Below are positions 5,767 through 45,206 of a stretch of DNA of 64,000 nt, in pieces. Position 1 is the stretch's first letter. The number at the start of each line of letters is the position of its first letter. The DNA lies in contig NZ_HE999444.1 of the NCBI RefSeq assembly GCF_000312305.1, forward strand, positions 374,423 to 438,422, given 5' to 3'. The notes under the pieces were generated by a model. It saw only the letters and a program-made list of their open reading frames with translations, was not told the origin of the DNA and did no database searches. The translations under genes and the position numbers were made by a program. This DNA comes from Prevotella conceptionensis 9403948 (GTDB taxonomy: Bacteria; Bacteroidota; Bacteroidia; Bacteroidales; Bacteroidaceae).

Positions 5767-6056
5767 ATAACGTTATTATATAATTGTTTGTATTCAGCTA
5801 AATATGCTGCAAAGGTAATAATAAATATGAAAATGGTTACATGTTTTCTCTAAAAAATGTAATCTCCATGTTGCAAAATATGGGTATAAGGGTCATCATT
5901 ATTGAGTAGGGGCGGGTTCTTATCCCTGTCGACAAACTAGTAACAGACTCTTTTTTGCGTTTGTGGATGTGTAAGGCTTAAACCAAGCGTTTATGTTTCT
6001 TTATGTTCTTTCAATGTTAAATGTATAAGAAACATAAAAAGGTTACAGACCTAGTT

Positions 6057-7106
6057 TTAAGATACTTTGAGCACAGTTGCGCTGTCTTTTGAAACGATAA
6101 GAACGTGGTGGTTTAGGAAGAGTAATTTATCTATGGCTTTATTGTTCATGTTGTTTTTATTTAGAACGGAGAAACTCCCTTGATATTTGCCTTTGCATAA
6201 GTCGTATTTGTCTATTATATAATGAGCATGAGTGGAAATACGATAGGAAAGTACAAATAATGAATTACCTTTTGCAAATGCACCTACGTTAGAATTAAAA
6301 GTTTTACCCCTTTCAAAGATGTAGAAATCACCATACCTGATGATTGAAGGAGCCGGTACGTTATCTAGCGTTTTGACAATTCTAGTTAGTTTTCCTGTTT
6401 TGTCAAACACGTATATGTATGGAATATGCGTAAATGTGTATGTTATTGCCTCATTTGTATTAAGGAAATGGCCATCGTAAGCTAATACTTGTTCTTGATA
6501 AGTTTTGTATTTGTTATTTTCTGGCAAGTAACCTCCCTTTCCTAGCTGAGTGAATTGTTTTGTTTTCACATTTAGTATTCCAAAGCTCGTTCCATTATTA
6601 TTGGTTATGGAATCATTTTTTATTACGAGTAATGTACTGTCATTAATTGGCGTTGCATTGATAAGTAGCTGGGATAACTTCACCTTATTAAATCTAAGTT
6701 GTTCAGTTGTGTCTGAAAGAAATAGAGAAGAGCGTGAAATATAATATATTTGATTGCCGAGTTGCCCGAAAATCTGTGTGTCAAATTTGGCAGATTTGTA
6801 GATTCTAGCTATTATCCCATTCCTTTTGAGTTGTTTTATTATCGTGTTTTTATCTGTTTTATATTGTACTAGGATGTTTTCTGGGTCACAACAGACTCCA
6901 TTCGGTTTTGAAAAATCAATTCCTTTGCATGGGTTTGTACATTGTTTGAATGGATTTTTTATGTAGAACCTTTGAAAGGAGTAATTGTATTCTGCAGACT
7001 TACCTCTTATGGATAATAGTAAAAAGGACAATATACAGCATAGCAACAACAGGATTGTAGCTATGCTGTATATATGCTTTTCTTTTGTGTTCTTAAATTG
7101 TTTCAT
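6057..7106 (-). CDS. Membrane-anchored periplasmic protein, probable six-bladed beta-propeller
   Basis: The 349-residue protein has a short basic N-terminus, one membrane helix (about 12-33) and a long exported domain. After the helix comes a cysteine cluster, C56, C60, C72 and C73, within NPFKQCTNPCKGIDF and NGVCCDPEN. The rest is rich in short beta-strand pairs such as YIYVFDKTGKLTRIVK and FGILNVKTKQFTQLG, as seen in the Bacteroidota 6-bladed propeller proteins often found beside small exported peptides. That fold assignment is by pattern only. It overlaps the MauE-like gene by 14 bases and is the last gene of the cassette. The region is visibly more AT-rich than nuo and feoAB, hinting at transfer. 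Confidence 0.6.
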   Translation of the reverse strand: MKQFKNTKEKHIYSIATILLLLCCILSFLLLSIRGKSAEYNYSFQRFYIKNPFKQCTNPCKGIDFSKPNGVCCDPENILVQYKTDKNTIIKQLKRNGIIARIYKSAKFDTQIFGQLGNQIYYISRSSLFLSDTTEQLRFNKVKLSQLLINATPINDSTLLVIKNDSITNNNGTSFGILNVKTKQFTQLGKGGYLPENNKYKTYQEQVLAYDGHFLNTNEAITYTFTHIPYIYVFDKTGKLTRIVKTLDNVPAPSIIRYGDFYIFERGKTFNSNVGAFAKGNSLFVLSYRISTHAHYIIDKYDLCKGKYQGSFSVLNKNNMNNKAIDKLLFLNHHVLIVSKDSATVLKVS

Positions 7107-7497
7107 TTTTCTTTAGTAGATAGGTCAGTATGATAATAATACCTATGTTTATAGCCAGGTGCGTAGTAAAGGATAATCCATTGAGAATCCCGCCACATCC
7201 GCAAATTTCATATCTATTTAATAGGTGAAGGATAACAATATAAATGGAAAAAGTAGCCATCATACTTAACGATAGCCAAAGGCCCACTCTTTCTTTCACA
7301 AGTAAGCCTACAATAGAGACGCATTCAAAAGCCAAAGCTCCATATGCAACGTACTTAATGTGCATGGGGTGGAATAACCCCGTTTTTGCAATATTGAGTT
7401 CGAACGAAATTAGGTTAAGCAGCTTGTTGGCAAGTGTGTATGCGAAAAACAGAACGATTCCACACACAAGTACCCGATATGTAATGTTGCATTTCAT
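7093..7497 (-). CDS. MauE/DoxX-like redox-associated membrane protein
   Basis: A 134-residue protein with four predicted membrane helices (about 8-28, 48-68, 72-92, 110-128) and a Cys-Gly-Cys motif (residues 99-101) in YEICGCGGILNGLSF between helices three and four. This layout is that of the MauE/DoxX membrane family; MauE supports disulfide formation in exported methylamine dehydrogenase, and related proteins are thought to move reducing or oxidising power across the membrane. It lies two bases after the barrel gene and overlaps the propeller gene. A role in handling the cysteines of the peptide and of the propeller protein is inference. Confidence 0.7.
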   Translation of the reverse strand: MKCNITYRVLVCGIVLFFAYTLANKLLNLISFELNIAKTGLFHPMHIKYVAYGALAFECVSIVGLLVKERVGLWLSLSMMATFSIYIVILHLLNRYEICGCGGILNGLSFTTHLAINIGIIIILTYLLKKNETI

Positions 7498-7499
7498 GT

Positions 7500-9791
7500 T
7501 TATTGTTCTTTCGTTTTTGTGTCATCGTTGTTGATGTTTGTGCCAACTCGCCGTGTTCTGAAACTCTTACCAAAAGTAATGTTGGCAGAGAGTGATATTG
7601 ATGAGGTGGATAGCTTGGACGTAATGGTTCGAAACCCTGTCTTGAAATGGTAGATTGTGGTGGTGCGTTGGTTCCACCCAAACACATCTTGGTAGTTGAG
7701 TGACAGCTCCAATAGGTCTTTAAGAAAGTTTCTTTTGACAAGAATAGAAAGCGAGGGGCGATGTGTAGTGCTGCTATTTAGGTCGAAAGACTTATTTATA
7801 TAGTTTCCGTTTAGGTTGAAATACCATCCCTTAGGCGCAGAAAAGCTTAGGTTTAAGGCACTGTTGACAGTCCATCCGCTTTGTTGTATGTTTCTCATGA
7901 GCGTTTTCTCTGCAAAGCGGTTATAGAGTTTATATTGCTCATGGTTTACGCTCATGTTGAAGTTAATGTTGAGTTTGTGGCTCAACATGGGCAGATAGAT
8001 GCCTGCTCCCATCCTGTAAATGTTGGCTCGTGCTGCATTTTCGTATGTGGAGCAGTCAAGATTATCACTGAATACCAATTCTATCAAATTTGTTGTGTGT
8101 GCGTATGTGGCGAAAGCATTGAGGTAGCTATTACGCAATTGTTTCCTAATTTGTAGTGAAAAGTTGTTGGTGTATTGTGGAGCGAGGTTGATGTTTCCTT
8201 GAAACTGTTCATGTTCGCTCACATAAAATGTTTCTGGATTGAGGTAATCCACGCTTGGCCTATTGATTTTGCGACTGTAAGAGGCAGAGATACTGCCTAT
8301 TTTGCTGTTGGCATTTAGAACCAGTGTGGGTAGAAGTGTGTGATAATTGCTGTGTTTTGTTTCCATTCTGTTAGCGGTCCATTCATTCCTAACGGCCACG
8401 TATGCGTCAAACGGACCACCTAAGCTAAAACTTTCCGTAAGGAACAGGTTGTGTATGTTGGTATAGAATTTTCGTGTATAGGCACTCAGCAAGTGTTGCC
8501 TGTAAATGTTTTTGTAACCCATTTGCAGGTCGTTTCCTTTTCCGATAAAGTGCAAGTTGTTAGCTTGGTATGAAAGTTCCCCTGTAAGCTCGTTCATGCC
8601 TGTTTCGTATATTAAGGAGACAGGCTGGTCGTTCTCGTTGGTTGACTTGTATTTGCGAAAGCGGGCTTTCAAGTTTAGTAGTTTGTTCTTGCTTATTTCG
8701 TAGCAAGACACAATGTTTATGTTGTGGCTGCCGTATCCTTCGGTGATTTTTTGTTTACCAGAGAATCCTGCTTTACTCTCTGTCTGGGCGTTTATCTTGC
8801 TGTTGAAACCAAAGAAGGTATAGGCTATTGATGCTTTAAATTTCGGAGTGGCAAAAATGCTTAGTTTTGCATTTGCTGTGCATTGCCCCACTTTTGCGCT
8901 TTTGTCTGAATGATAGTTCTGTTCTTCGTTCCATGCTATAGTCTGCCACGAGTGTTGATTGGAGAGGTGTCCCGATAGGAATGCGGTGAACTCTATGCTT
9001 TGTGTACGTAGTGTTATTTGAGGGAACGTGCCGTATCGTTCTTGCGAAAAATTAGCTGCGCTTAGGCTCATCTGCCCCTTTACTAAGGACGGCAAGTGTT
9101 TTTTCTTGATGACATTTATCACTCCACCATCCGATGCTTCGTCTGTTCCGTGCCTTAGTACCTCAACTCTCTCTATATCTTTCAGGTCTAGAGTCATCAG
9201 TTCTTTTATGTCTACCTCCCTATCGTCTATGCGTAGGCTTGTAGGCTTGTTGTTCCCAGGAAGTGAAAAGGAATCTCCGCTTTTCATCACACCTGGTAAA
9301 CGGCTCAATGCCATATCGGCCTTGGCATTCACAGGAAATCCTCTTCGATCAATGTCGAATGTTGTTTTGTTGGCACTAGTGCTGGCAATACGTTTGTATC
9401 CTGTTACTTTCACCTCTTGCAGCTCCAAGTGATTGAGGCGTATCTCGTGGATTTTGGTTTGCGAAAGAGTTAGTGTCGTATCCTTGGACTGGTACATAAA
9501 GGCGTGAATGCTCACCTTACACGTGTCTGTGTCTGGTACAGGAACAATTTGTGCAACAAAGATGCCATCCTCGTTCGTTTTGCCAATTGTCTTATTGTTG
9601 GCATAGTCTATGCTTACATTAATGTCGTTGAGTGACAATCCATTGTCTATTGTTATGTGAATTTTTAGATTTTGGGGTTGCTGTGCATGTACAAAAGATG
9701 AAGAAACTAACAGTAATACGGAGATAAGGCTTAATAATTTACGGCAGACAGATGTGCCTGCCGTAAAAAATGATAGTGAAACGGTAATCAT
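7500..9791 (-). CDS. TonB-receptor-like outer membrane beta-barrel protein
   Basis: About 763 residues from the start MITVSLSFFTAG at 9791, ten bases after the peptide gene stop; the frame opens further to 9827 but would then overlap that gene. A signal peptide ends near VSSSFVHAQQ. Residues about 40-115 form an Ig-like carboxypeptidase-regulatory domain (NEDGIFVAQIVPVPDTD). A plug follows with LSRLPGVMKSGDSF, RIDDREVDIKELM and the typical end VEVLRHGTDEASDGGVINVI. The remainder has alternating barrel strands and a short C-terminal tail after FGKSFRTRR. It resembles the outer membrane beta-barrel family (PF14905-type). No SusD partner is present. The substrate is unknown; the neighbouring exported peptide is a candidate cargo (inference). 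Confidence 0.75.
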   Translation of the reverse strand: MITVSLSFFTAGTSVCRKLLSLISVLLLVSSSFVHAQQPQNLKIHITIDNGLSLNDINVSIDYANNKTIGKTNEDGIFVAQIVPVPDTDTCKVSIHAFMYQSKDTTLTLSQTKIHEIRLNHLELQEVKVTGYKRIASTSANKTTFDIDRRGFPVNAKADMALSRLPGVMKSGDSFSLPGNNKPTSLRIDDREVDIKELMTLDLKDIERVEVLRHGTDEASDGGVINVIKKKHLPSLVKGQMSLSAANFSQERYGTFPQITLRTQSIEFTAFLSGHLSNQHSWQTIAWNEEQNYHSDKSAKVGQCTANAKLSIFATPKFKASIAYTFFGFNSKINAQTESKAGFSGKQKITEGYGSHNINIVSCYEISKNKLLNLKARFRKYKSTNENDQPVSLIYETGMNELTGELSYQANNLHFIGKGNDLQMGYKNIYRQHLLSAYTRKFYTNIHNLFLTESFSLGGPFDAYVAVRNEWTANRMETKHSNYHTLLPTLVLNANSKIGSISASYSRKINRPSVDYLNPETFYVSEHEQFQGNINLAPQYTNNFSLQIRKQLRNSYLNAFATYAHTTNLIELVFSDNLDCSTYENAARANIYRMGAGIYLPMLSHKLNINFNMSVNHEQYKLYNRFAEKTLMRNIQQSGWTVNSALNLSFSAPKGWYFNLNGNYINKSFDLNSSTTHRPSLSILVKRNFLKDLLELSLNYQDVFGWNQRTTTIYHFKTGFRTITSKLSTSSISLSANITFGKSFRTRRVGTNINNDDTKTKEQ

Positions 9792-9801
9792 TCTGCTACG
9801 T

Positions 9802-10005
9802 TTAAATTTCCACCCACTTTCCAACAAGTTGGGTCCCTTTCGTTGTTATTCCACAAGTGCCTTCCTCACCGAGACATCCACTGAATCCTGGCCCATAATC
9901 GACAGGTGGATTTGAGGGGTCTTCTACTTTTGCAGTTGTTGTACTAAACAAACTTGCTAGCACAATACCTGTGCAAATCATAGTTAATTTAAAAATTGTT
10001 TTCAT
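9802..10005 (-). CDS. Small exported two-cysteine peptide precursor
   Basis: A 67-residue protein with a clear signal peptide (MKTIFKLTMICTGIVLASLF, cleavage likely after STTTA) leaving about 42 residues. The mature part is Pro/Gly-rich (DPSNPPVDYGPGFSG) and has cysteines at 44 and 51 in GCLGEEGTCGITTKG, spaced for a disulfide loop. It resembles in size and layout the small exported precursors of Bacteroidota (NVEALA and DUF6520-type) that sit beside propeller and MauE-like genes, but lacks the NVEALA motif itself. A -7 element TAAATTTG lies at 10083-10076 on this strand. It is the first gene of the cassette. Confidence 0.7.
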   Translation of the reverse strand: MKTIFKLTMICTGIVLASLFSTTTAKVEDPSNPPVDYGPGFSGCLGEEGTCGITTKGTQLVGKWVEI

Positions 10006-10256
10006 GTTATTTTGTTTTTAGTTGTTATTTGCTGATGCCAGAAAAAGGCGCAGCAATTTTGATTAATTCTCATGGCAAATTTACAAATAAAATGCTTTAT
10101 TGTCTTCTTTTTGGTGGTTAAAAAAGGTTAATGCCTATGTGCCTGTATGCATATTACTAAAAACCGAGGTGCTATCGGCCACCTTCCAGCGCTTACTGAA
10201 AGCGTTTCTTGATGGCTCCTATATAAATAAGGAGTGGGGGAGAAGGGGGCGAGTGC

Positions 10257-12845
10257 CTAACTTCCCATTATCAAACTGCCCACTTGATATACCGCGGCAC
10301 TAACAACCCACGCCAGGCCTGTGGTGTAAAAGGCGGCGAACAATGCCCAACGCCACGAGCCGCTTTCGTTGCGAATGGCGGCAACCGTGGCAATACAGGG
10401 GAAGTAAAGCAACACGAAAATGAGGTAGGCATAGGCCGAGATGGGCGAAATGCCGTCGTTCAGCATTTGTCTACGCAAGCGTGTGTATTTCTCGGTGTCG
10501 TCGCCAGAGCTGTTGTCGTCGCTAAAACTGTCGTCGTCGGCATACAGCACGCCCATCGTTGAGGCCACAATCTCTTTTGCGCCAACGCCTGCAAGCAAAC
10601 TGACGTCTAGTTTCCAATCGAAACCTTGCAGACGGAATGCCGGCTCAATGGCCTTACCCATCCTGCCGATGATGCTTTGTTCTTGTTGCTGTTGCTTGTC
10701 TAGCTCGTCGTTGTGTGGGAAATATCCCAATGCCCAAACAATGATACTGGCCACAAGGATGATGCCGCCCATCTTCTGCAAATATTGTTTGCCTTTCTCC
10801 CATGTGTGTCGGGCGATGGCTTTTTTTGTGGGGAAACGATACGGCGGCAACTCCATCACGAAGGGCGTATCTTCGCCTTTCACCAAGAAACGACTGAAAA
10901 TCTTGCTCATTATCACGGCCATGAGTATGCCCACAACGTAAAGCGAAATCATAATTGCCGAGCGATACTTCAAGGCGAAGAACGTTCCCGTTATCATGAT
11001 GTAGATAGGCAGGCGCGCCGAACAACTCATCATGGGCAGGATAAGCATGGTTATCAGTCGGCTACGCCTGCTTTCGATGGTGCGTGTGGCCATTACCGCA
11101 GGCACATTGCAGCCAAAACCCATGATAAGGGGTATGAACGATTTGCCGTGCAGCCCCATCTTGTGCATCAACTTGTCCATGATAAAGGCCGCGCGAGCCA
11201 TGTATCCGCTGTCTTCCATGAACGAGATGAAGAAGTAGAGGATGAGAATTTGCGGCAGAAACACGATAACCGCGCCCACGCCGGCAATAATTCCATCGGC
11301 CAACATGGCCTTTACTGGCCCATTGGGCAGGGTCTGCTTTACCCATTCTCCCAGCCAATTTACGCCTTGGTCTATCCAATCCATAGGATATTGCCCCACG
11401 GTGAACGTTACCTGAAACATGATGTAGAGCAGCAAGAAGAAGATGGGGAACCCCCAAAACTTATGGGTAATGATGGCATCTAGCTTGTGGGTAAGCTTGT
11501 AGGTGTCGGTGGCTTTGCCCTCCTTGTAGCCTGCCTTGGCCAAAACGCCATGAATAAAGGCGTATTTGGCATCCATAATGGCTGTTTCGCAGTCCTCGTT
11601 AAGTTGTGTTTTTATGCTTTGTGCCTCCTTGTCGCGCGTGGCCAATATGGCCTTGGCGTTGCTTAACGAGGCCACTTCGCGTTCTGTTTCGGCATCGTTC
11701 TCCAACAGTTTGATGGCCAGGTATCGCGTATGGAACTTGTGCCTAACCTCTGGGTTCTGCTCAATTTGCAGTTTCAGGCGGTTGATACATAGTTCCAGCC
11801 TTGGGCCATGATTGATATGTACGTGTCTCGATACCTTGTTGTGCGGCTTAGCATCGGTTGTGGCAAAGTCTTCTTGGTGCTCGGTGGGCACGTCGTTCTT
11901 ATAGTCCTCGTGCCACTTTTGCAGGTCGGCAGCCACTTCGGGGTTGATGTTGCCGTCCTTGTCGATAAAGTCCATTCCCTCATACATGTTGATGATGATG
12001 TGGAAAAGCAGCTGCACGCCGCGCCCAGTCTTAAATACGGTGGGTATCATGGGCACACCCAATTGCTTGCCCAGCATTTCAAGGTTTATGGTGTCGCCGC
12101 GTTTCTCAAACTCGTCGTACATGTTTAGGGCGCACACCATACGCAAGTTCATGTCTACGAGTTGGGTGGTGAGGTAAAGGTTACGTTCCAAATTACTGGC
12201 ATCTAGCACGTTGATAACCACGTCGGGCGTTTTTTCAACGATCTGTTTGCGCACATATAGCTCCTCCGGACTATATGCCGAGAGCGAGTAAGTGCCTGGC
12301 AGGTCTACCAAATGAAACTCATAGCCCTCGAAACGTGCGACACCTTCCTTGGCATCGACGGTTACGCCCGAATAATTTCCCACCTTTTCGTGTGCTCCCG
12401 ATGCGAAGTTGAACAGCGATGTCTTTCCGCAGTTGGGGTTTCCCACCAGTGCCACGTTTATCACGCGGCGCTTGTGGCGTGCCGCTTGTTGCATCTTTTC
12501 TTCGCTAACGGGCATGTCGGTTGCCGTTGGCTGCGGCATGTCGTCCCTTTCGGCGTTCGTGCCCAATGTGTTTTCGGTGTCTTTCGTTTCGTCGTTGGGC
12601 GTGTCGATAAGCTTGGCTTCTTCTTCCGAAACCACTTCAATCATTTGCGCCTCGTCGCGGCGGAGCGAAATTTCGTAACCAAGTATCTTGTATTTCACGG
12701 GGTCTTGAAGGGGCGCATTGAGCAACACCTCCACGGTTTTACCCTTAATAAAGCCCATCTCTACAATGCGTTTTCTAAAACCGCCGTGGCCCAAAACTTT
12801 CACCACAACGGCTTTTTCTCCCGTTCTTAGTTCCGATAATCTCAT
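10257..12845 (-). CDS. feoAB: Ferrous iron transporter, FeoA-FeoB fusion
   Basis: An 862-residue chain. FeoA, an SH3-like domain, spans residues 1-75 (MRLSELRTGEKAVVVKVLGH). A polar linker follows (about 78-125). The FeoB GTPase domain has G1 VGNPNCGKTS at 134-143, G3 DLPGTYS and G4-like ALNMYDE. The membrane part has gate-type segments, including GFGCNVPAVMATRTIE and SCSARLPIYIMI. It imports Fe(II) across the inner membrane. The fusion of A and B is common in Bacteroidota. A -7 motif TAACTTTG lies at 12888-12881 on the minus strand; the nearest TTTG is 23 bp upstream, longer than ideal. No separate FeoC is visible. Confidence 0.95.
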   Translation of the reverse strand: MRLSELRTGEKAVVVKVLGHGGFRKRIVEMGFIKGKTVEVLLNAPLQDPVKYKILGYEISLRRDEAQMIEVVSEEEAKLIDTPNDETKDTENTLGTNAERDDMPQPTATDMPVSEEKMQQAARHKRRVINVALVGNPNCGKTSLFNFASGAHEKVGNYSGVTVDAKEGVARFEGYEFHLVDLPGTYSLSAYSPEELYVRKQIVEKTPDVVINVLDASNLERNLYLTTQLVDMNLRMVCALNMYDEFEKRGDTINLEMLGKQLGVPMIPTVFKTGRGVQLLFHIIINMYEGMDFIDKDGNINPEVAADLQKWHEDYKNDVPTEHQEDFATTDAKPHNKVSRHVHINHGPRLELCINRLKLQIEQNPEVRHKFHTRYLAIKLLENDAETEREVASLSNAKAILATRDKEAQSIKTQLNEDCETAIMDAKYAFIHGVLAKAGYKEGKATDTYKLTHKLDAIITHKFWGFPIFFLLLYIMFQVTFTVGQYPMDWIDQGVNWLGEWVKQTLPNGPVKAMLADGIIAGVGAVIVFLPQILILYFFISFMEDSGYMARAAFIMDKLMHKMGLHGKSFIPLIMGFGCNVPAVMATRTIESRRSRLITMLILPMMSCSARLPIYIMITGTFFALKYRSAIMISLYVVGILMAVIMSKIFSRFLVKGEDTPFVMELPPYRFPTKKAIARHTWEKGKQYLQKMGGIILVASIIVWALGYFPHNDELDKQQQQEQSIIGRMGKAIEPAFRLQGFDWKLDVSLLAGVGAKEIVASTMGVLYADDDSFSDDNSSGDDTEKYTRLRRQMLNDGISPISAYAYLIFVLLYFPCIATVAAIRNESGSWRWALFAAFYTTGLAWVVSAAVYQVGSLIMGS

Positions 12846-29043: not shown

Positions 29044-29634
29044 ATGAATGCGATGAAAGCTTTTGTTTTAGCGATAGTTGCTCTTGTTGTAGCTGCTGGA
29101 TGCGCTCATACTGGTAAGCCTCGCACTTTTGATCGTGAACAAGCGAAACTTTACCCTCGTGTACTTTACAAAGCCATTAACGACAATAAAGATTCTCTTG
29201 ACTTTATCCTGTCATTAGAAGCGTTTTATGAGGAGTTTGGGAAAGATAAGAAACCTTATCAATTATCGGTTGATGAAATGAAAATGGCCAAAAAAATATT
29301 GGAAAAATATGTGGAGAATGGGGGAAACCACCTCGTTGCCGATCCTAAGGCGAGCGCGAAAACGGGGAAAGAGGGGTGCGACGTAATGGAGAACATAAAG
29401 CCCTTACCTCTGACACATTATTATAAGCAGTACCTTGGGTATGAGCAAAAGGGGCATCTAATTGTGGAAATAAACTTGCTTGCTTTTGTTTATGTGAACT
29501 ATGGGGAAAGTGTGAGTGCTTACCTTCAACGTGTTTACAGCCTCCCGCATGACGGTGGAAAGCATTTTGGCAGAGTGTTGGTCGACCTTACAGAAAAGAA
29601 GGTGATACGTTTCTCTTTGAATGCAGTTTCGTAA
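29044..29634 (+). CDS. Hypothetical lipoprotein
   Basis: A 196-residue protein with lipobox VAAGC after a hydrophobic leader (MKAFVLAIVALVVAAGC), so it is likely lipidated at Cys-20. Starting at the second Met (29053) would shorten it by three codons. The mature protein begins with AHTGKPRTFDREQAKLYPRV, has a helical acidic first half (FYEEFGKDKKPYQ) and a C-terminal strand-rich part ending RVLVDLTEKKVIRFSLN. I recognise no family. It stands alone between a membrane-protein gene and a repeat element. Confidence 0.65.
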   Translation: MNAMKAFVLAIVALVVAAGCAHTGKPRTFDREQAKLYPRVLYKAINDNKDSLDFILSLEAFYEEFGKDKKPYQLSVDEMKMAKKILEKYVENGGNHLVADPKASAKTGKEGCDVMENIKPLPLTHYYKQYLGYEQKGHLIVEINLLAFVYVNYGESVSAYLQRVYSLPHDGGKHFGRVLVDLTEKKVIRFSLNAVS

Positions 29635-30183
29635 GACCGCTCGTTTGACACTTACTTCTAGAATGTGACAGTTTCCGTTTATGTTAGAACACGATGCAAT
29701 AACGTTTTTGTGTCGTTTTTGAGAAGTTCTTTCCATGTTCTTATCAATGTCTCTCTCATACACCATGATAATGCCTTTGATAAGTTAGTGTTTTTATTGG
29801 GCGACATCATTTTTTTCGTATTTGCTTGGATTTTCTTCGTTGTTCCATCGTCAAACGAGCATTAATATTACCAAAACTGTGGTTTGGCGTAAAGATAACT
29901 CGCCTAACGTACATTACCTCGTTAGTATGTTAACCACATTATCAACTTTCTAATTTAAGTCATTGTGTCTTACACAATAAGGCCGTTTTGACTTTTAATA
30001 TTTCTATAAAATACGAGAAGTTTATTGTCTTTGTGCCGTAAAACCGAGATAAACGCTCCTATCATATACGAAGAGGTGGACAAACCAACTCACAGGCTTA
30101 TAATCCCACAAAAAAACAACAACACCCTAATACATCAATTCATCAACTTGCAAAGCCAAAGACCCATCAACTCAAAATCTTAA

Positions 30184-30815
30184 ATTGTTGTCTTTTATTT
30201 TACAATCACTCTTTGTTTTTCACTTCGTTCTAGCGAAAAAACAGGTTAAAAAGTAGGTAAAAAGCCACTATTTCTAGCTTTTCAAGCATCTCGTTTTGTC
30301 TATTTTTAAGGACAAAACCTGCATTTTGCACCATTTTGCCTTTCTAGATTGCTTGCCAACTCATTATTTCTCACGCCCAAAAAAACACTTTTAGCCCCTG
30401 AAATGCCACTTTTTAGTGTCTATTTTGCCCTTTCCAGCCATGTTTTTAATGGTTCTAAAAGGTTTTGTTTATACATTTGCGGTGTATTTTTATGCTTTTC
30501 ACCTTTCATTTAGCAGCATTTTGCCCTGTATTTAGCACCATTTTACCTTGCATTTAGCACCAAAACGCACTGCATTTAGCATCAAAACGCATTGCGTTTA
30601 GCGGCATATTGCACTGCGTTTAGCAGCAAAACGCACTATATTTTGCTGCAAATCGCCAAAAAACGGGTGTTAGTGGCGGTCGGTTTAAATAAAAATTCAT
30701 TTTGCTGGCATGTACAACTAACCCCTTTTTGCATCAAAACGAACCTTCGCGAGAATCGATTTTTTGCGGCAAGGTGGACGATTGTTGGCGAAAACTGCAC
30801 TCATAATGTTAAATT
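30184..30815 (+). repeat. Core repeat, copy at 30 kb
   Basis: Homologous to 51609-52250, 63094-63733 and the reverse complement of 42370-43017. Landmarks in order: CTTTTATTTTACAAT, GTTCTAGCGA, CCACTATTTCTAG, TTTCTAGATTGCTTGCC, GGTTTTGTTTATACA, the 22-bp array at 30505-30658 (seven units), CTTCGCGAGAATCGATTTTT and CATAATGTTAAATTTCTT. Reading frames through it are not conserved between copies, so I regard it as non-coding. Confidence 0.8.
30505..30658 (+). repeat. 22-bp tandem palindrome array (seven units)
   Basis: Units start at 30505, 30527, 30549, 30571, 30593, 30615 and 30637, exactly 22 bases apart. The consensus TGCRTTTAGCASCAAAACGC is itself an imperfect palindrome: TGCRTTTWG faces CWAAAYGCA. 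There are no unique spacers, so it is not a CRISPR array. Confidence 0.85.
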
Positions 30816-30835
30816 TCTTACTAAAAATAAGACAA

Positions 30836-30967
30836 AACAGATTATGCTGCGTACACATGCAAAGGCAACGGCGACGGAAAGCATGTACGCTTACAACCGC
30901 CAACGCGAGCAGTTGCAGGGCATGCTGCCCACGGTCAACGGAGACGGCATCATGCAAACACAGAAAT
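30836..30967 (+). other. GC-richer segment inside the composite element, possible captured gene fragment
   Basis: This stretch differs from the AT-rich repeat around it. One frame reads MYAYNRQREQLQGMLPTVNG then DGIMQTQK and a stop, which has protein-like composition. It has no start region of its own and is not found in the copy at 51 kb, where a hairpin repeat occupies the same place. It may be the 3' end of a gene picked up by the element. Confidence 0.4.
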
Positions 30968-31460
30968 AACCAGCCATTGGCAACCAGTTTTCAACTTATA
31001 GCAAATACATTGAATAACTTCCGCAAGTAACCTTTTTGAGGTATAACCACGTTCTGCCACAGACAAAAGGCGCAGAATTTCAGATTTTATCGTTTACTTG
31101 TCCAGTACTTCGTACATGCGCGGAGTGTTTATCTTGGTTTTACGGCACAAAGATAATAAGCACCCCTCACTTTGTAGAAATATTAAAAGCCAAGGTGAAC
31201 TCAATAAACAAATTACTCAAATTATTTTGATAAAATTGGCGTATAGTTTGAAATATTGATTATATTTGTAGCGAATATCAGAAGATTCACAAACTTAAAA
31301 TAAGATAGCTTTGATAATACATTGATTTTAGCAGCAATACTTATAATAAACTAATCAACCTTGACTATTAGAGTGGGTTTGATTCAGTTTAATAAGATGT
31401 TGATATTGATCATTGAGTATGACAAGAGAAAAACAATAACAAACTAATAGTATAGATATT

Positions 31461-31994
31461 ATGTTTACAAGTGATAATCCAACTTCATATCGTGTGGAAT
31501 ACAAGTTTATTGTAGTGTATGATAAGTTTACTAAGCCTGTAGCTAACTCTATAAAGAACAAGGCTCGCGCTCTGTCTATCAGTAGTACAGCTTGGAGTGA
31601 GAAACAGTATCTTAGTCAAGAACCAAGTCTGAGTAACGATAACCATGTTCTTTTTCTGTCAAAGTCATTGTTAAAGGAAAACTTATCAAATCCTCAACTT
31701 CAATTAAAGAAGTTAACTAATGGCACTAAATACAAGAGTCAGGGAAATGTAGCGGGTATTTTTGTTGAAAAGGTTGATTTTATTGAAGTTGCAAGGCAGC
31801 TTAGTGCTAGTTTGAACGAAAAATGGTTATATGTTGTTACAACTCTAATTTGTACAACAACTATAGGTCAATTATTAGCTGCATGGCAGTACATGTCTAA
31901 GAAAAAGAAAGCAGAGCTGTACTTACTTTACAAGGCAACTGACAAGTTTGCGAAAGATAATCTTAAATCTTTTGTGGCTGGTAAATTGAAGTAG
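31461..31994 (+). CDS. Unknown protein with alpha/beta domain and one membrane helix
   Basis: A 177-residue protein I do not recognise. Residues about 10-112 look like a compact alpha/beta domain: strands at VEYKFIVVYD, NHVLFLSKSL and NVAGIFVEKVD alternate with helices. Residues about 122-143 (WLYVVTTLICTTTIGQLLAA) form one membrane helix, followed by the basic stretch MSKKKKAELYLL and a short helical tail. It is AT-rich compared with flanking housekeeping genes. The next gene starts two bases after its stop, so the two form one operon. A -7 motif TATATTTG at 31261-31268 gives a leader of about 190 bases. A nucleotide-sensing or immunity-type role is possible but unproven. Confidence 0.55.
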   Translation: MFTSDNPTSYRVEYKFIVVYDKFTKPVANSIKNKARALSISSTAWSEKQYLSQEPSLSNDNHVLFLSKSLLKENLSNPQLQLKKLTNGTKYKSQGNVAGIFVEKVDFIEVARQLSASLNEKWLYVVTTLICTTTIGQLLAAWQYMSKKKKAELYLLYKATDKFAKDNLKSFVAGKLK

Positions 31995-31996
31995 TT

Positions 31997-33508
31997 ATGA
32001 AGTTATCTTTTGAAAGAGGATATGAATCTTTTTCCAACATAGTTGGTGCTGTACATGGAGTGCATAGTGCGGCAGGTTATGTTGGCAAAGTATCTGATGC
32101 TTGTAATGAATTGCAATCTAACATTAATAAGTTTAAGGGATTTGAAACAGGCATTAAACAGTTGAAAGGTGATGTTTTTGAGTTTCGTTCATCTGGAAGT
32201 TTTAATATTAGTGCTGCAATTAATGAATCTCAATATTGTACGATAGTTGATAGAAATCACGGCTATGCATCAGCTGATATAACAACGAATTGGGGTGAAG
32301 ATTATGGATTAAAGGCTTTATTTAACGGAGTAGCTTCTGCTAAAGCGCAGTCTGTAAGCCATTTTCAGAGGTTCATAGAGTATAGAGCTGCATCGGGGAG
32401 AGCTGATTTGACATTTGAAACGTTTGTTACTGAAAAGGGATTAGATCCATTAGTCGTATTGAAAACAGACCCAATCTATTTAGGTCAAAAGCGTTTGTTC
32501 CCTTCAGACCAGTTGAAAGAAGCAGTAATTTATTTGAAAAAACAAATAGCAAACAGAACGATTACCAATCCTGATGAAGTAAGAAGGTACCAGGAAACTC
32601 TTGAAAATTTAACTTCAATGATTATTGCTCCAGATGGAACCACGTCTTATGCCGTTAGTACAGAACACTTGCTCGATATAGCAGAAAAGGCTAAGAAGGG
32701 AGAATATGATGCAGCAAGAGATGGTTTTTCCACTGAGCAATTAATAAAGATTGAACATGTTCTTAAACAGGGAAATAAAGCTGGGCTTACTTCTGCAACA
32801 ATTTCACTTGTTCTTAAAACTGCTCCAGAGATTTATAAGTGTCTTGATGAGCTTATTTCTACAGGAGGAATTAATGAGCAGCAACTCAAGTCACTCGGCT
32901 TTGCAGCCCTTGATGGGTCTACCGATGGATATATCCGTGGTTTTGTTTCTGCAACAGTAACTGTATCTTGCACCGCAGGGTTATGGGGGGAAACGCTTAA
33001 ATCAGTTAGCCCTGAAGTTGTAGGGGCATTGACGGTTGTAGTGATGAATACACTTAAAGATTCATTTTTGTTAGCTAAAGGTAGTATTTCACGACATGAC
33101 TTTACGTATAATTTGCAAAGAAACATGTTTGTTACTGCTTGTGGCTTAGGAGGTGGAACGCTTCTTCAAAGCTGCTTGCCCATGCTACCATTTGCTTACT
33201 TACTTGGAAGTTTTGTGGGTTCAATGGTAGGCTCCTTTGCTTTTTTTGCGTATGACCAAGCGATACTTTCATATTGTGTTTCTTCTGGAAGTACTTTCTT
33301 CGGCATTGTAGACCAAGACTATAAACTCCCTGAAGAAGTCTTGAAGGAATTAGGCCTGTCATTATTTGAATATGAGAAGTTTCTCCCTCATGAAAGTTCA
33401 TTCAGTACTTATATACCAGGCCGTTATGAGATAAATCAATACAGTTCATCAATGATTAAGGTGTTAAGAAGGGGGGTAATAGGAATTAGACAAATTGGTT
33501 ATCTATAA
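31997..33508 (+). CDS. Unknown 503-residue protein with a glycine-rich hydrophobic C-terminal half
   Basis: No family could be named. The N-terminal 60 residues are helical and Gly/Ala-rich. Residues 55-120 include VFEFRSSGSFNISAAI, ADITTNWGEDYGLKALF and SAKAQSVSHFQRF, a polar, motif-like block that could hold an active site. A helical middle follows (about 165-290). The C-terminal part is hydrophobic with Gly-zipper character: GYIRGFVSATVTVSC, ACGLGGGTLLQS and YLLGSFVGSMVGSFAFF (about 310-425), ending in a soluble tail. The shape recalls proteins that insert into membranes. It is translated with the 177-residue partner, is AT-rich, and is flanked by a repeat element, which all suggest an accessory island. 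Confidence 0.55.
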   Translation: MKLSFERGYESFSNIVGAVHGVHSAAGYVGKVSDACNELQSNINKFKGFETGIKQLKGDVFEFRSSGSFNISAAINESQYCTIVDRNHGYASADITTNWGEDYGLKALFNGVASAKAQSVSHFQRFIEYRAASGRADLTFETFVTEKGLDPLVVLKTDPIYLGQKRLFPSDQLKEAVIYLKKQIANRTITNPDEVRRYQETLENLTSMIIAPDGTTSYAVSTEHLLDIAEKAKKGEYDAARDGFSTEQLIKIEHVLKQGNKAGLTSATISLVLKTAPEIYKCLDELISTGGINEQQLKSLGFAALDGSTDGYIRGFVSATVTVSCTAGLWGETLKSVSPEVVGALTVVVMNTLKDSFLLAKGSISRHDFTYNLQRNMFVTACGLGGGTLLQSCLPMLPFAYLLGSFVGSMVGSFAFFAYDQAILSYCVSSGSTFFGIVDQDYKLPEEVLKELGLSLFEYEKFLPHESSFSTYIPGRYEINQYSSSMIKVLRRGVIGIRQIGYL

Positions 33509-43259: not shown

Positions 43260-43865
43260 CTATATCGTTTTAAGTAATTCAATAACCTTGTGGATCTCCG
43301 AATAAGCCTTTAAATCTTCGGGCGACTCTTGGCATAGTTGGCATAGTTTCTCAGAGTTTTGCACGGCCCTTTCTAAGTCGCCATGCTCAGTTAGATACTT
43401 ATATAGGTTTGTTTTGGTGAAGTAGCGTTTCGTTTTCTCGTATCCCGGCATGTGTTTCTGCAGTTCGGGCAGCAACTGCTCGTAGCTTTCGTATTGCCGA
43501 CACACCACATTGGGCAAGAAATGCAGTAAGAACCAAAACTCCGTACAAGGATTTGTTTCTATGAACATCACTCTTCCCGCATATTTCTTTGCTGCGTATT
43601 TCTTTTTGGCGTTGTTGTAAAGCCGCATTTCAGAGGGCTGTTGTAGAAGTCTATCCATGTCGAACAGACAGACGATGAAATCGTATTGTTGTTTGTTAAG
43701 GTACGATTCTACTAGCTTTAAAATGTGTTTGACGTCACTGTGTTGTGGAAAATCGGGAGCCACTTTGAAGGGATAGCGGCACGTTATCCTCAGCGAATCG
43801 AAGTAAAACCACTCTGTTTCTCCTTCGCCAATGATGGCTACACTCTTTGTAACAGTCCGTTTCAT
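43260..43865 (-). CDS. rloB: RloB-like (AbiLii-type) protein of an abortive-infection pair
   Basis: A 201-residue RloB-family protein. A Toprim-like pattern is visible: IIGEGETEWFYFDSL (acidic residue at 14-16), FIVCLFDMDR with the D-x-D at 69-71, and FIETNPCTEFWFLLHF at 102-116. Relatives include RloB and the second component of lactococcal AbiL, believed to be nuclease-like. It lies four bases after the AAA ATPase gene. Together they form a two-component anti-phage module. Codon use resembles the chromosome less than radA does, and repeats flank it. Whether it is active cannot be read from sequence. Confidence 0.85.
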   Translation of the reverse strand: MKRTVTKSVAIIGEGETEWFYFDSLRITCRYPFKVAPDFPQHSDVKHILKLVESYLNKQQYDFIVCLFDMDRLLQQPSEMRLYNNAKKKYAAKKYAGRVMFIETNPCTEFWFLLHFLPNVVCRQYESYEQLLPELQKHMPGYEKTKRYFTKTNLYKYLTEHGDLERAVQNSEKLCQLCQESPEDLKAYSEIHKVIELLKTI

Positions 43866-43869
43866 GGGG

Positions 43870-45168
43870 CTAATCGTTAAGGTTCAGATATTGGCTGCCT
43901 AAGAAAGGCAACTTAACCAGCTTTCCTTGGCGGTAAGCATTGTATGGCGAAAGGTTTTTATGGAGACCAAGCGATGAGAGACGAGCTAGTTTTGTTTCTC
44001 CCAGTTCGTCTTTATCGGTAAACCAAATTGTGTCGCGACGGATAAAGTCTTCGTTGAGAAGGTTGATGTCGTGTGTAGTCAATAGCAATTGGGATGTTTG
44101 GTTGCTATTGGCCAAAAACACCTTGATGAAGTAGGACAGCAGCTCATAATGAATGCTAGCCTCCACTTCGTCGATAGCCACAAACTGCTTTTCTCTCAAC
44201 AGTAAGTTCAGTATAACAGCCATTCCTAATAATCTTATTGTGCCATTCGATTCGTTTTCTTCGGGCAAGGTGTATTTTTTTTCACCAGCATGGTGGGTGA
44301 ACATCAGTTCCAAGTTTGTTGTTCTCCCCTTATTTAGTATTTTCTCTTTCGTCTTGTCGTCTATGGGAGCTTTCGAAATCAGTTGCCTTAGTTCGGAAGT
44401 AAACATCTTATTGCCCTTATGTAGGGCAATGTCTTCGATGTTAAAGTCGGATGCTCTCAGAAAGTTCAATAAAAAACGTTTCAGCTCTCCACGCTCGTCT
44501 GTGCTCAAATGCACCTTTACGTAATCAGACAACCGTATGTCTGGTGTCAACACCTCCCTAATATGGTAGGCAAAATATTCGTAAACCTCGTTCAATCTGG
44601 TTCTTTCCACATTGCTTTTCCCGAATGCGGCAAGCACGCTGCAATTGTTGATGGTGTTTCCTAAGATAACATCTTGGCTCTTTTTTGTAAGTTTTAGATT
44701 GGCCCCAAACGCAATTGTTGTAGAGTCTGTGCTCTTGTCATAGCTACGAATGTATAGCTTTGTAGGTCTGTTTGAGTCGTAAACAATTAATGTTTCAGCA
44801 CAGATGCGCTCTTCGTCTAATTCAAAATTAAGCACGAATTTGGTTTGATTGACATAAAACGCCATAGACATCTTTGTTGTTTCGTTCCTTGAAGTGTCGT
44901 TCAACAGAAAAGGAACAACGCCCGTTTTCTCATTGCGGTCTTGTGGCATTCTTAGTACGAGCGTCTTAAAAAAGTCGATAGCGTTCAGTATGTTGCTTTT
45001 TCCCGAAGCGTTCGCGCCATAGATGATGCCAATCTTCAGCAATCTTACTCCATCCTTAACTTCACACGAATACTCGTCAGACATAAATGTATCTGACGTA
45101 GGTTCAAAGCTAATGGTTTGAGGTTTCTTTATAGAAAAGAAATTCTCAATAGTAAATTCTGCAATCAT
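43870..45168 (-). CDS. rloA: AAA ATPase of an abortive-infection pair (RloA/AbiLi-like)
   Basis: About 432 residues from MIAEFTIENFFSIKKPQ at 45168; the extra upstream codons to 45201 are His/Tyr-rich and not family-like. Walker A YGANASGKSN lies near residue 45. The distal half holds the ABC-type signature region GTIRLLGMAVILN, Walker B QFVAIDEVEASIHYELL and the switch LLLTTHDINLL. This is the AAA15/21 OLD-like group paired with RloB. The -7 motif TACCTTTG at 45206-45199 is a probable promoter. Confidence 0.85.
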   Translation of the reverse strand: MIAEFTIENFFSIKKPQTISFEPTSDTFMSDEYSCEVKDGVRLLKIGIIYGANASGKSNILNAIDFFKTLVLRMPQDRNEKTGVVPFLLNDTSRNETTKMSMAFYVNQTKFVLNFELDEERICAETLIVYDSNRPTKLYIRSYDKSTDSTTIAFGANLKLTKKSQDVILGNTINNCSVLAAFGKSNVERTRLNEVYEYFAYHIREVLTPDIRLSDYVKVHLSTDERGELKRFLLNFLRASDFNIEDIALHKGNKMFTSELRQLISKAPIDDKTKEKILNKGRTTNLELMFTHHAGEKKYTLPEENESNGTIRLLGMAVILNLLLREKQFVAIDEVEASIHYELLSYFIKVFLANSNQTSQLLLTTHDINLLNEDFIRRDTIWFTDKDELGETKLARLSSLGLHKNLSPYNAYRQGKLVKLPFLGSQYLNLND

Positions 45169-45206
45169 AGTGATGATATGTGATAGGTAATGATGATGCA
45201 AAGGTA

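Follow-up and report, generated by a model that had tools for sequence, protein, structure and literature searches.

The MauE family of membrane proteins takes its name from methylamine metabolism. According to PMC7794033, it has been suggested, as a speculation, that MauE helps to form disulfides in the beta-subunit of methylamine dehydrogenase, and the decRiPPter work described there yielded three candidate families of ribosomally synthesised and post-translationally modified peptides (RiPPs) in Streptomyces that include MauE and whose precursors carry at least eight Cys residues. For Bacteroides, PMC6671954 states that general disulfide machinery is missing and that the thiol oxidoreductases of the bacteroidetocin regions likely form the bonds. 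Because of these statements on MauE and on Bacteroides disulfides, an oxidase specific to one peptide is plausible. Here we describe a set of four genes in a stretch of 64,000 nucleotides from Prevotella conceptionensis 9403948 (contig NZ_HE999444.1, positions 374,423 to 438,422 of the forward strand; this whole stretch is called the window, and positions are counted from its first letter). With a probability of roughly 0.55, we regard the set as a divergent member of a widespread envelope module of Bacteroidota, in which an exported Cys peptide would be oxidised by MauE with a beta-propeller protein.

On the minus strand the set runs from the peptide gene through the barrel and MauE genes to the gene of an anchored protein, and all four are open frames at the coordinates listed here:

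10076 to 10083, minus strand: TAAATTTG, 70 bases ahead of the peptide ATG; fits the -7 consensus (a consensus match only)
9802 to 10005, minus strand: peptide gene, 67 amino acids (aa); leader 1-25, mature part 26-67, Cys44 and Cys51 (C-x6-C)
9805 to 9930, minus strand: predicted mature peptide of 42 residues, read from the translation with the signal peptidase rule
7500 to 9791, minus strand: outer-membrane beta-barrel of 763 aa with a leader and a plug-like N-terminal segment; PF14905, Plug below cut-off
7093 to 7497, minus strand: MauE-family four-helix membrane protein of 134 aa; PF07291, four hydrophobic regions
7195 to 7203, minus strand: Cys99-Gly100-Cys101 of the C-x-C-G-G ... H motif in this protein, predicted from the topology to lie on the periplasmic side
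6057 to 7106, minus strand: membrane-anchored protein of putative beta-propeller type with 349 aa; a helix at 7-40 is followed mainly by strands (profile and model)
6888 to 6941, minus strand: four clustered Cys residues, C56-x3-C60-x11-C72-C73, in the anchored protein; a feature specific to the window

A first-pass annotation made from the letters had proposed these four components, and each of them is present, as seen from the coordinates, the PF14905 and PF07291 matches and the Cys positions, including the Cys-Gly-Cys of MauE and the four clustered Cys of the anchored protein. Its estimate of a mature peptide of about 42 residues with two Cys also agrees with the predicted cut after Ala25, which keeps Cys44 and Cys51. 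The peptide stop and the barrel ATG are 10 bases apart, 2 bases separate the barrel and MauE genes, and the MauE gene and the gene of the anchored protein overlap by 14 bases; on one strand, the genes are packed as in one operon. The open reading frame list places the barrel at 7500-9827 with a TTG start inside the peptide gene. The in-frame ATG at 9791, which gives 763 aa with a leader of its own, is most likely the start. For the sequence element ahead of the peptide gene, the Bacteroides -7 consensus is TAnnTTTG. Directly after the last gene, a perfect inverted repeat of 12 bases was seen by eye at 5990-6038 (arms 6027-6038 and 5990-6001), possibly a terminator. The run is flanked by feoB (10257-12845) and nuo genes, both named from their translations. 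The set has a GC content of 39.2%. Overlapping stretches of the same size within the window average 46.5%, and only 6 of 121 are lower than the set. In steps of 500 bases, values of 33-45% were obtained inside the set, and the feoB and nuo genes on either side mostly reach 47-53%.

The window MauE matches PF07291 over residues 5-128 with 63 bits (cut-off 27) and carries the motif C99-G-C101-G-G ... H113. With the N-terminus inside and four helices, the loop that carries C-x-C and connects helices 3 and 4 would be periplasmic, and one further helix would put the propeller on the side of the exported peptide. Among 148 genomes of the phylum, 10 match DUF6520 (PF20130; E up to 0.001), 8 of them above the cut-off. 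At 12 of the 13 DUF6520 places, read with more flank, MauE was found in 12 and an anchored propeller in 11 (L114 is without it; G and L numbers denote genomes and loci), fused to MauE in 9. In a MauE alignment of 13 rows, in which all rows besides the window came from these DUF6520-found loci (12 of 13 places), the Cys pair, the Gly pair and the His are invariant. With the 12 DUF6520-linked MauE sequences, the window protein reaches 34-55 bits, compared to at most 16 bits with the NVEALA-linked MauE and the longer BT_3928-like MauE examined. In a tree whose rows were gathered by a profile built from the window MauE and its DUF6520-linked counterparts, and which includes 7 BT_3928-like and 5 NVEALA-linked rows, a branch with a support of 100/99 separates the window and DUF6520-linked proteins from the other kinds, with the window as a long branch. 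Sequence comparison places the window MauE on the same branch as the MauE of a module made up of MauE, propeller and Cys peptide.

To describe this module, the MauE alignment was scanned against genome contigs of 84,980 species, which gave at least 581 relatives among at least 597 stretches; the best 80 of the 581 were examined. By their record titles, all 80 loci come from the classes Flavobacteriia, Sphingobacteriia or Chitinophagia. A propeller is encoded at every one of them, fused to MauE in 73 and adjacent in 7. A signal-bearing Cys peptide adjoins MauE and propeller in 79 of 80 loci, and the remaining one, L138, ends at the contig end. The 79 peptides consist of 73 accepted ones (75 were flagged, with none in five loci, and the frames in L165 and L193 were dropped as spurious) and 6 that were hidden by opposite frames (L122, L143, L156, L176, L165 and L193). 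By an automatic rule, 63 of the 72 fused genes have a signal-bearing Cys peptide downstream, compared to 7 of 456 among the remaining genes of the same loci; when no signal was required, the counts were 65 of 72 versus 25 of 456. The number of Cys residues is even in all 73 peptides, with long frames trimmed to an internal start, and by reading each of the 6 further peptides has four. The operon peptide likewise carries an even number, two Cys in its mature part spaced as C-x6-C. While C-x-C-G-G occurs in 80/80 relatives by construction, given the scan pattern [FY][VIE]PCSCGG[IV], the downstream His is likewise found in 80/80. The same pattern is blind to MauE of the window type (ICGCGGI), and related genomes are not independent, so that the locus counts overstate the number of events. 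From these comparisons, the link between peptide, MauE and propeller is well supported.

An S9 peptidase lies near 70 of the 80 loci and a SusD protein near 66; both were confirmed by Pfam in L119 and assigned elsewhere by similarity to L119, and SusC-like genes were assigned by size and place. Neither S9 peptidase nor SusD was seen with the window operon, whose neighbours read as feoB and nuo genes, and some relatives are without them too. Pfam also identified a PAS/HTH_18 regulator next to the module in L133 and a TPR protein with an HTH_18 match below cut-off in L119. In three loci of Chryseobacterium type (L118, 9716-9904; L119, 9767-9934; L130, 9750-9932), a protein of 55-63 aa with the pattern C-x2-S-G-x-W-E ... 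M-P-[ED]-Y-C-G is encoded upstream of the fused gene. In L118 and L130 it is preceded by a small lipoprotein-like protein, and both L118 proteins are without a Pfam family. Neither DUF6520 nor DUF4221 is mentioned in the open-licence literature searched.

The anchored protein of the window has a single strong hydrophobic segment (residues 15-33) and seven Cys residues (positions 23, 24, 56, 60, 72, 73 and 304), four of them clustered at 56-73. It has no match in Pfam (E up to 10) or NCBIfam and one in PHROGs (E 0.083). A profile of 11 relatives' propellers matches it weakly over residues 214-323 with 11.6 bits (E 0.006 in a small set), where the best of 1000 shuffles reached 6.5 bits; single relative sequences remained below significance. 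A structure model was obtained with a mean predicted local distance difference test score (pLDDT) of 68.7 and a predicted TM-score (pTM) of 0.64. In Foldseek searches with this model, the best rows are mostly propellers (E about 1e-5 to 1e-4, query TM-scores 0.2-0.4), among them the lipoprotein BtuG, partner of a vitamin B12 transporter. The propeller label, a guess of the first-pass annotation, is now backed by a weak profile match and a middling model. In PDB sequence searches, nothing below E 0.9 was found with the window protein and one match at E 2.7 with the relatives' profile. A scan of the genome contigs with the window sequence returned 69 stretches and no relative.

For comparison, the fused Chryseobacterium protein of L119 was modelled (pLDDT 85.9, pTM 0.73). 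The model shows the MauE helices, one further long helix and then strands that we counted as six blades. Foldseek again returned propellers, and VIA-align ranked the DUF4221 protein BVU_1028 (PDB 3s9j) first, with Z 20.1 and a root-mean-square deviation of 3.7 over 291 residues (next row, Z 18.4). The profile match, though weak, places the window propeller in the same family as the propellers adjoining MauE in the relatives, and its gene overlaps that of MauE. The propeller fold itself, as modelled, does not indicate a function. None of 44 relatives has more than one Cys in the stretch aligned to the window cluster, so the comparison does not support the clustered cysteines as a general feature. 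Since these relatives carry at most one Cys there, any role of the cluster would be special to this genome.

The peptide leader is of the Sec type, with cleavage after Ala25 predicted by eye. The window contains 77 frames of 60-100 aa that start with ATG; 5 of them are signal-like and 3 of those, including this one, have two or more later Cys. Taken alone, the peptide thus exceeds chance only modestly, and the case for it derives from the operon context and the relatives. It matched no family in Pfam (E up to 10, PF20130 included) or NCBIfam, nothing useful in PHROGs and no entry in a PDB sequence search. The first two Cys of the window peptide are separated by 6 residues, as they are in 56 of the 74 peptides from relatives, a set that includes the second peptide of L146; in 14 of 74 the spacing is 5.

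The barrel matches PF14905 (OMP_b-brl_3) with 125.9 bits (cut-off 27), and its Plug match of 14.6 bits lies under the Plug cut-off. Used as query, it matched 72 of 100 genomes of the genus, its own included (E up to 0.001). Scores above 200 bits were reached only in its own genome and at two places of G064 (269 and 227 bits), and all other matches in the genus were at most 43 bits. By sequence similarity, no barrel like that of the window occurs at any of the 80 relatives' loci. The barrel of one of them, the Pedobacter rhodius locus L146 (NZ_JAPWGL010000002.1), escaped this test and was caught by Pfam, in a PF14905 scan that covered L146 alone among the 80 loci.

L146 is the locus nearest to the window set in composition. 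It encodes two peptides (62 and 64 aa, each with C-x6-C), a propeller, MauE and a PF14905 barrel (54.8 bits), followed by a trypsin-like protease. Over 120 columns, the MauE proteins of L146 and the window share 34% identity (E 7e-18), and single comparisons show weak similarity for the barrel (E 4e-6) and the propeller (E 6e-4). The L146 barrel scores 28.5 bits with the window barrel, compared to 13.5 and 1.1 bits with the G064 barrels. Because the L146 barrel is nearer to that of the window than to those of G064, and the window barrel is far nearer to those of G064, the barrel may be either a shared subtype of the module or a separate recruitment. No match was found for the L146 MauE in plasmids or for the window MauE in phages. 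The proposal that the four genes form one unit is supported for peptide, MauE and propeller (propeller in 80/80 and Cys peptide in 79/80 loci) and in part for the barrel, as L146 has all four components in another order.

In Bacteroidales the set is rare. The propeller profile matched 1 of 344 genomes of the order, the MauE profile 1 of 398 genomes of the genus (E up to 1e-8) and the window MauE as single query 1 of 301 genomes, in each case its own. With the propeller as query, 2 of 301 genomes matched, its own and G374; the G374 match holds a stop and no propeller frame was recognised, so it was dropped. A DNA comparison with 39 other genomes gave no match to the four-gene stretch besides 45 bases in G546. 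Matches to the feoB and the nuo parts lay apart from each other, by more than 100 kilobases where both are on one contig (G004, G010 and G016). A comparative search for the four-gene order had been suggested; among the Bacteroidales sampled, the set is confined to the window's own genome, and outside the order the four components occur together in L146. Rarity and low GC content are in keeping with acquisition from outside. Recent copying from any locus seen is ruled out because of the divergence.

Within the family, Pfam MauE was found in 289 of 301 genomes, mostly, among the matches listed, in long frames that we call BT_3928-like from their length and from weak matches of other MauE proteins to the BT_3928 model. 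The 51 genomes with two or more MauE matches were searched again and 20 loci were taken. Stand-alone MauE genes of Bacteroidaceae cluster with NVEALA-type peptides, six-bladed propellers of PF17170, a signal peptidase and a Wzy_C/TPR protein. Pfam scans found PF14055 under cut-off in 3/3 peptides and PF17170 in 4/4 propellers; of the signal peptidase and the Wzy_C/TPR protein, one of each was scanned. When the 20 loci were scored with a profile of the four PF17170 propellers, one or more such propellers were detected in 12; a loose motif recognised one or more NVEALA-like peptides in 14. L088 was rejected as a MauE cluster, its match being a DoxX-like frame of 143 aa by reading. These clusters (L083 and other Bacteroidaceae loci) appear to be a second, parallel arrangement of MauE, propeller and peptide. 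They were rejected as home of the window set, as neither the window peptide nor its propeller matches those families: the propeller reached 0.1 bits with the profile of the four PF17170 members, and neither protein has a Pfam match. NVEALA is not mentioned in the open-licence literature searched.

Based on these comparisons, we propose that the peptide would be exported by Sec and then trimmed. The periplasmic C-x-C-G-G loop of MauE may take electrons from its two thiols and thereby close a disulfide, and by analogy MauE might pass the electrons to quinone. The propeller, held against MauE, could present the peptide. The barrel would most likely be the peptide's route in or out, a place that in most relatives examined is taken by an S9 peptidase with SusD. 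A broader view is tentative and less likely than not: exported disulfide peptides might constitute an undescribed class across the phylum, each with its own oxidase-chaperone of MauE and six-bladed propeller and with an outer-membrane partner that varies by lineage (either a barrel, or SusD and the protein it pairs with, accompanied by an S9 peptidase). The window would then be a rare representative in Bacteroidales, acquired horizontally, with two Cys in its peptide, in which the extra thiol cluster of the propeller takes part in disulfide exchange.

Several results weigh against our explanation of the operon. Its peptide shows no significant similarity to the profile of the 74 relatives' peptides (140 of 1000 shuffles equalled the score, 252 of 1000 for the mature part), and it has two Cys, versus four in 72 of those 74. 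The window and L146 peptides are weakly similar, with local scores that fractions of 0.0125 and 0.041 of shuffles also reached, and BLASTP of the window peptide against one of the L146 peptides returned no alignment. The model of the window propeller is poor over much of residues 59-150 (pLDDT below 50 at 59-79, 97-116 and 118-150). The barrel is not constant across the module, as most relatives have the S9 peptidase (70/80) and SusD (66/80) nearby instead, and no MauE, propeller or Cys peptide was recognised by reading next to either G064 barrel copy. In addition, sampling through DUF6520-derived MauE rows favoured that branch, and no biochemistry was found in the open-licence literature searched.

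Other explanations have to be weighed against disulfide formation in an exported peptide. In the methylamine dehydrogenase system, MauE goes together with a heavy chain of propeller type and a small chain rich in cysteine. By this parallel, the operon could encode a redox enzyme in the making, with the peptide as small subunit, the propeller as large subunit and MauE as maturation factor, and aromatic amine dehydrogenase appears among the Foldseek rows of the window propeller, at rank 39 (TM-scores 0.33), but not among the 50 VIA-align rows of the L119 model. We consider such an enzyme quite improbable: the relatives' peptides have no conserved Trp for a tryptophan-derived cofactor (Trp is present in 34 of 73), the propeller is membrane-anchored and fused to MauE in most relatives, and no amine dehydrogenase match was found for peptide or propeller in Pfam (E up to 10). 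By reading, other mau genes were not recognised in or next to the operon, in a search limited to its surroundings. Alternatively, low-GC genes with no relation to one another may have come together by chance between feoB and the nuo genes. This would fit the GC-poor region, the non-adjacent flanks in G004, G010 and G016 and the barrel homologues that occur elsewhere in the genus without the other three genes. The tight packing on one strand, the three-gene association conserved with fusions and the L146 locus make this very improbable, and for peptide, MauE and propeller it is already unlikely.

Two further explanations concern the purpose of the peptide. A secreted, antagonistic peptide of bacteriocin type, with MauE as its dedicated disulfide oxidase, would differ from our preferred explanation in purpose only. 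Bacteroidetocins, 42-residue Cys peptides for which dedicated thiol oxidoreductases are likely according to PMC6671954, offer a precedent. However, the window leader has no double glycine, no ABC peptidase-transporter and no immunity gene were recognised in the operon by reading, and the company of SusD and S9 peptidase at the relatives' loci is more like uptake or processing, so we regard a bacteriocin as unlikely. Alternatively, the peptide might be a signal or sensed ligand that is released, captured at the outer membrane by SusD and its partner or by the barrel, and read by a redox-active MauE-propeller pair that informs a neighbouring regulator. This is compatible with oxidation by MauE and is suggested by the frequent S9 peptidase (70/80) and SusD (66/80) genes and by the proteins adjoining the relatives' modules, the PAS/HTH_18 regulator in L133 and the TPR protein with its sub-cut-off HTH_18 match in L119. 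On the other hand, neither the window operon nor its direct neighbourhood shows a recognisable regulator, and the Pfam check of neighbours covered these two only, which leaves a signalling role on the doubtful side.

If the module does oxidise exported peptides, the recurring fusion of MauE and propeller beside an exported Cys peptide would suggest another role for MauE, as part of a system in the Bacteroidota envelope that is dedicated to making disulfides in peptides. This would give DUF6520 a function and draw attention to secreted peptides that form an unexplored group. The module occurs commonly, includes fusions and has no function that we found on record; the window adds a divergent member to it rather than a discovery of its own.

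Two other regions of the window were observed. At 43260-45201 on the minus strand, an RloB-like protein (PF13707, 115 bits) adjoins an AAA ATPase; PADLOC gave AbiLii and AbiLi matches, and the two are a candidate abortive-infection pair. The stretch 29044-33508 is GC-poor, with the lowest GC content of any 3.9 kilobases in the window beginning at 29501, and encodes proteins of 196, 177 and 503 aa without a Pfam match at E up to 0.01.

Compared with described systems, the Streptomyces decRiPPter candidates resemble the window in having a MauE homologue beside a cysteine-rich precursor for which modification was proposed; they differ in their precursors of at least eight Cys, and the PMC7794033 passages on them mention no propeller. 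Bacteroidetocins share with the window a mature Cys peptide of about 42 residues, a proposed dedicated thiol oxidoreductase and their occurrence in Bacteroidales, whereas they have a double-glycine leader, an ABC peptidase-transporter and, in the two founding members, four Cys, and MauE is unmentioned in the main text of PMC6671954. In the NVEALA clusters a small exported Cys peptide, a propeller and a stand-alone MauE likewise lie close together, but MauE is on another branch, the propeller is of PF17170, and signal peptidase and Wzy_C/TPR genes are added. The DUF4221 protein BVU_1028 (3s9j) is the best VIA-align match to the Chryseobacterium fusion model, not to the window protein, at 9% identity. 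L146 differs from the window in gene order, in its two peptides, in the trypsin-like protease and in a barrel and propeller of weak similarity; like the window, it has C-x6-C peptides, separate propeller and MauE genes and a PF14905 barrel in one run. Compared with the DUF6520 modules, the window has a shorter peptide with two Cys and without PF20130, separate MauE and propeller genes, a barrel, an extra Cys cluster and no S9 peptidase or SusD seen alongside. It shares with them an exported Cys peptide, a MauE of the same branch and an anchored, profile-related propeller, all directly adjacent.

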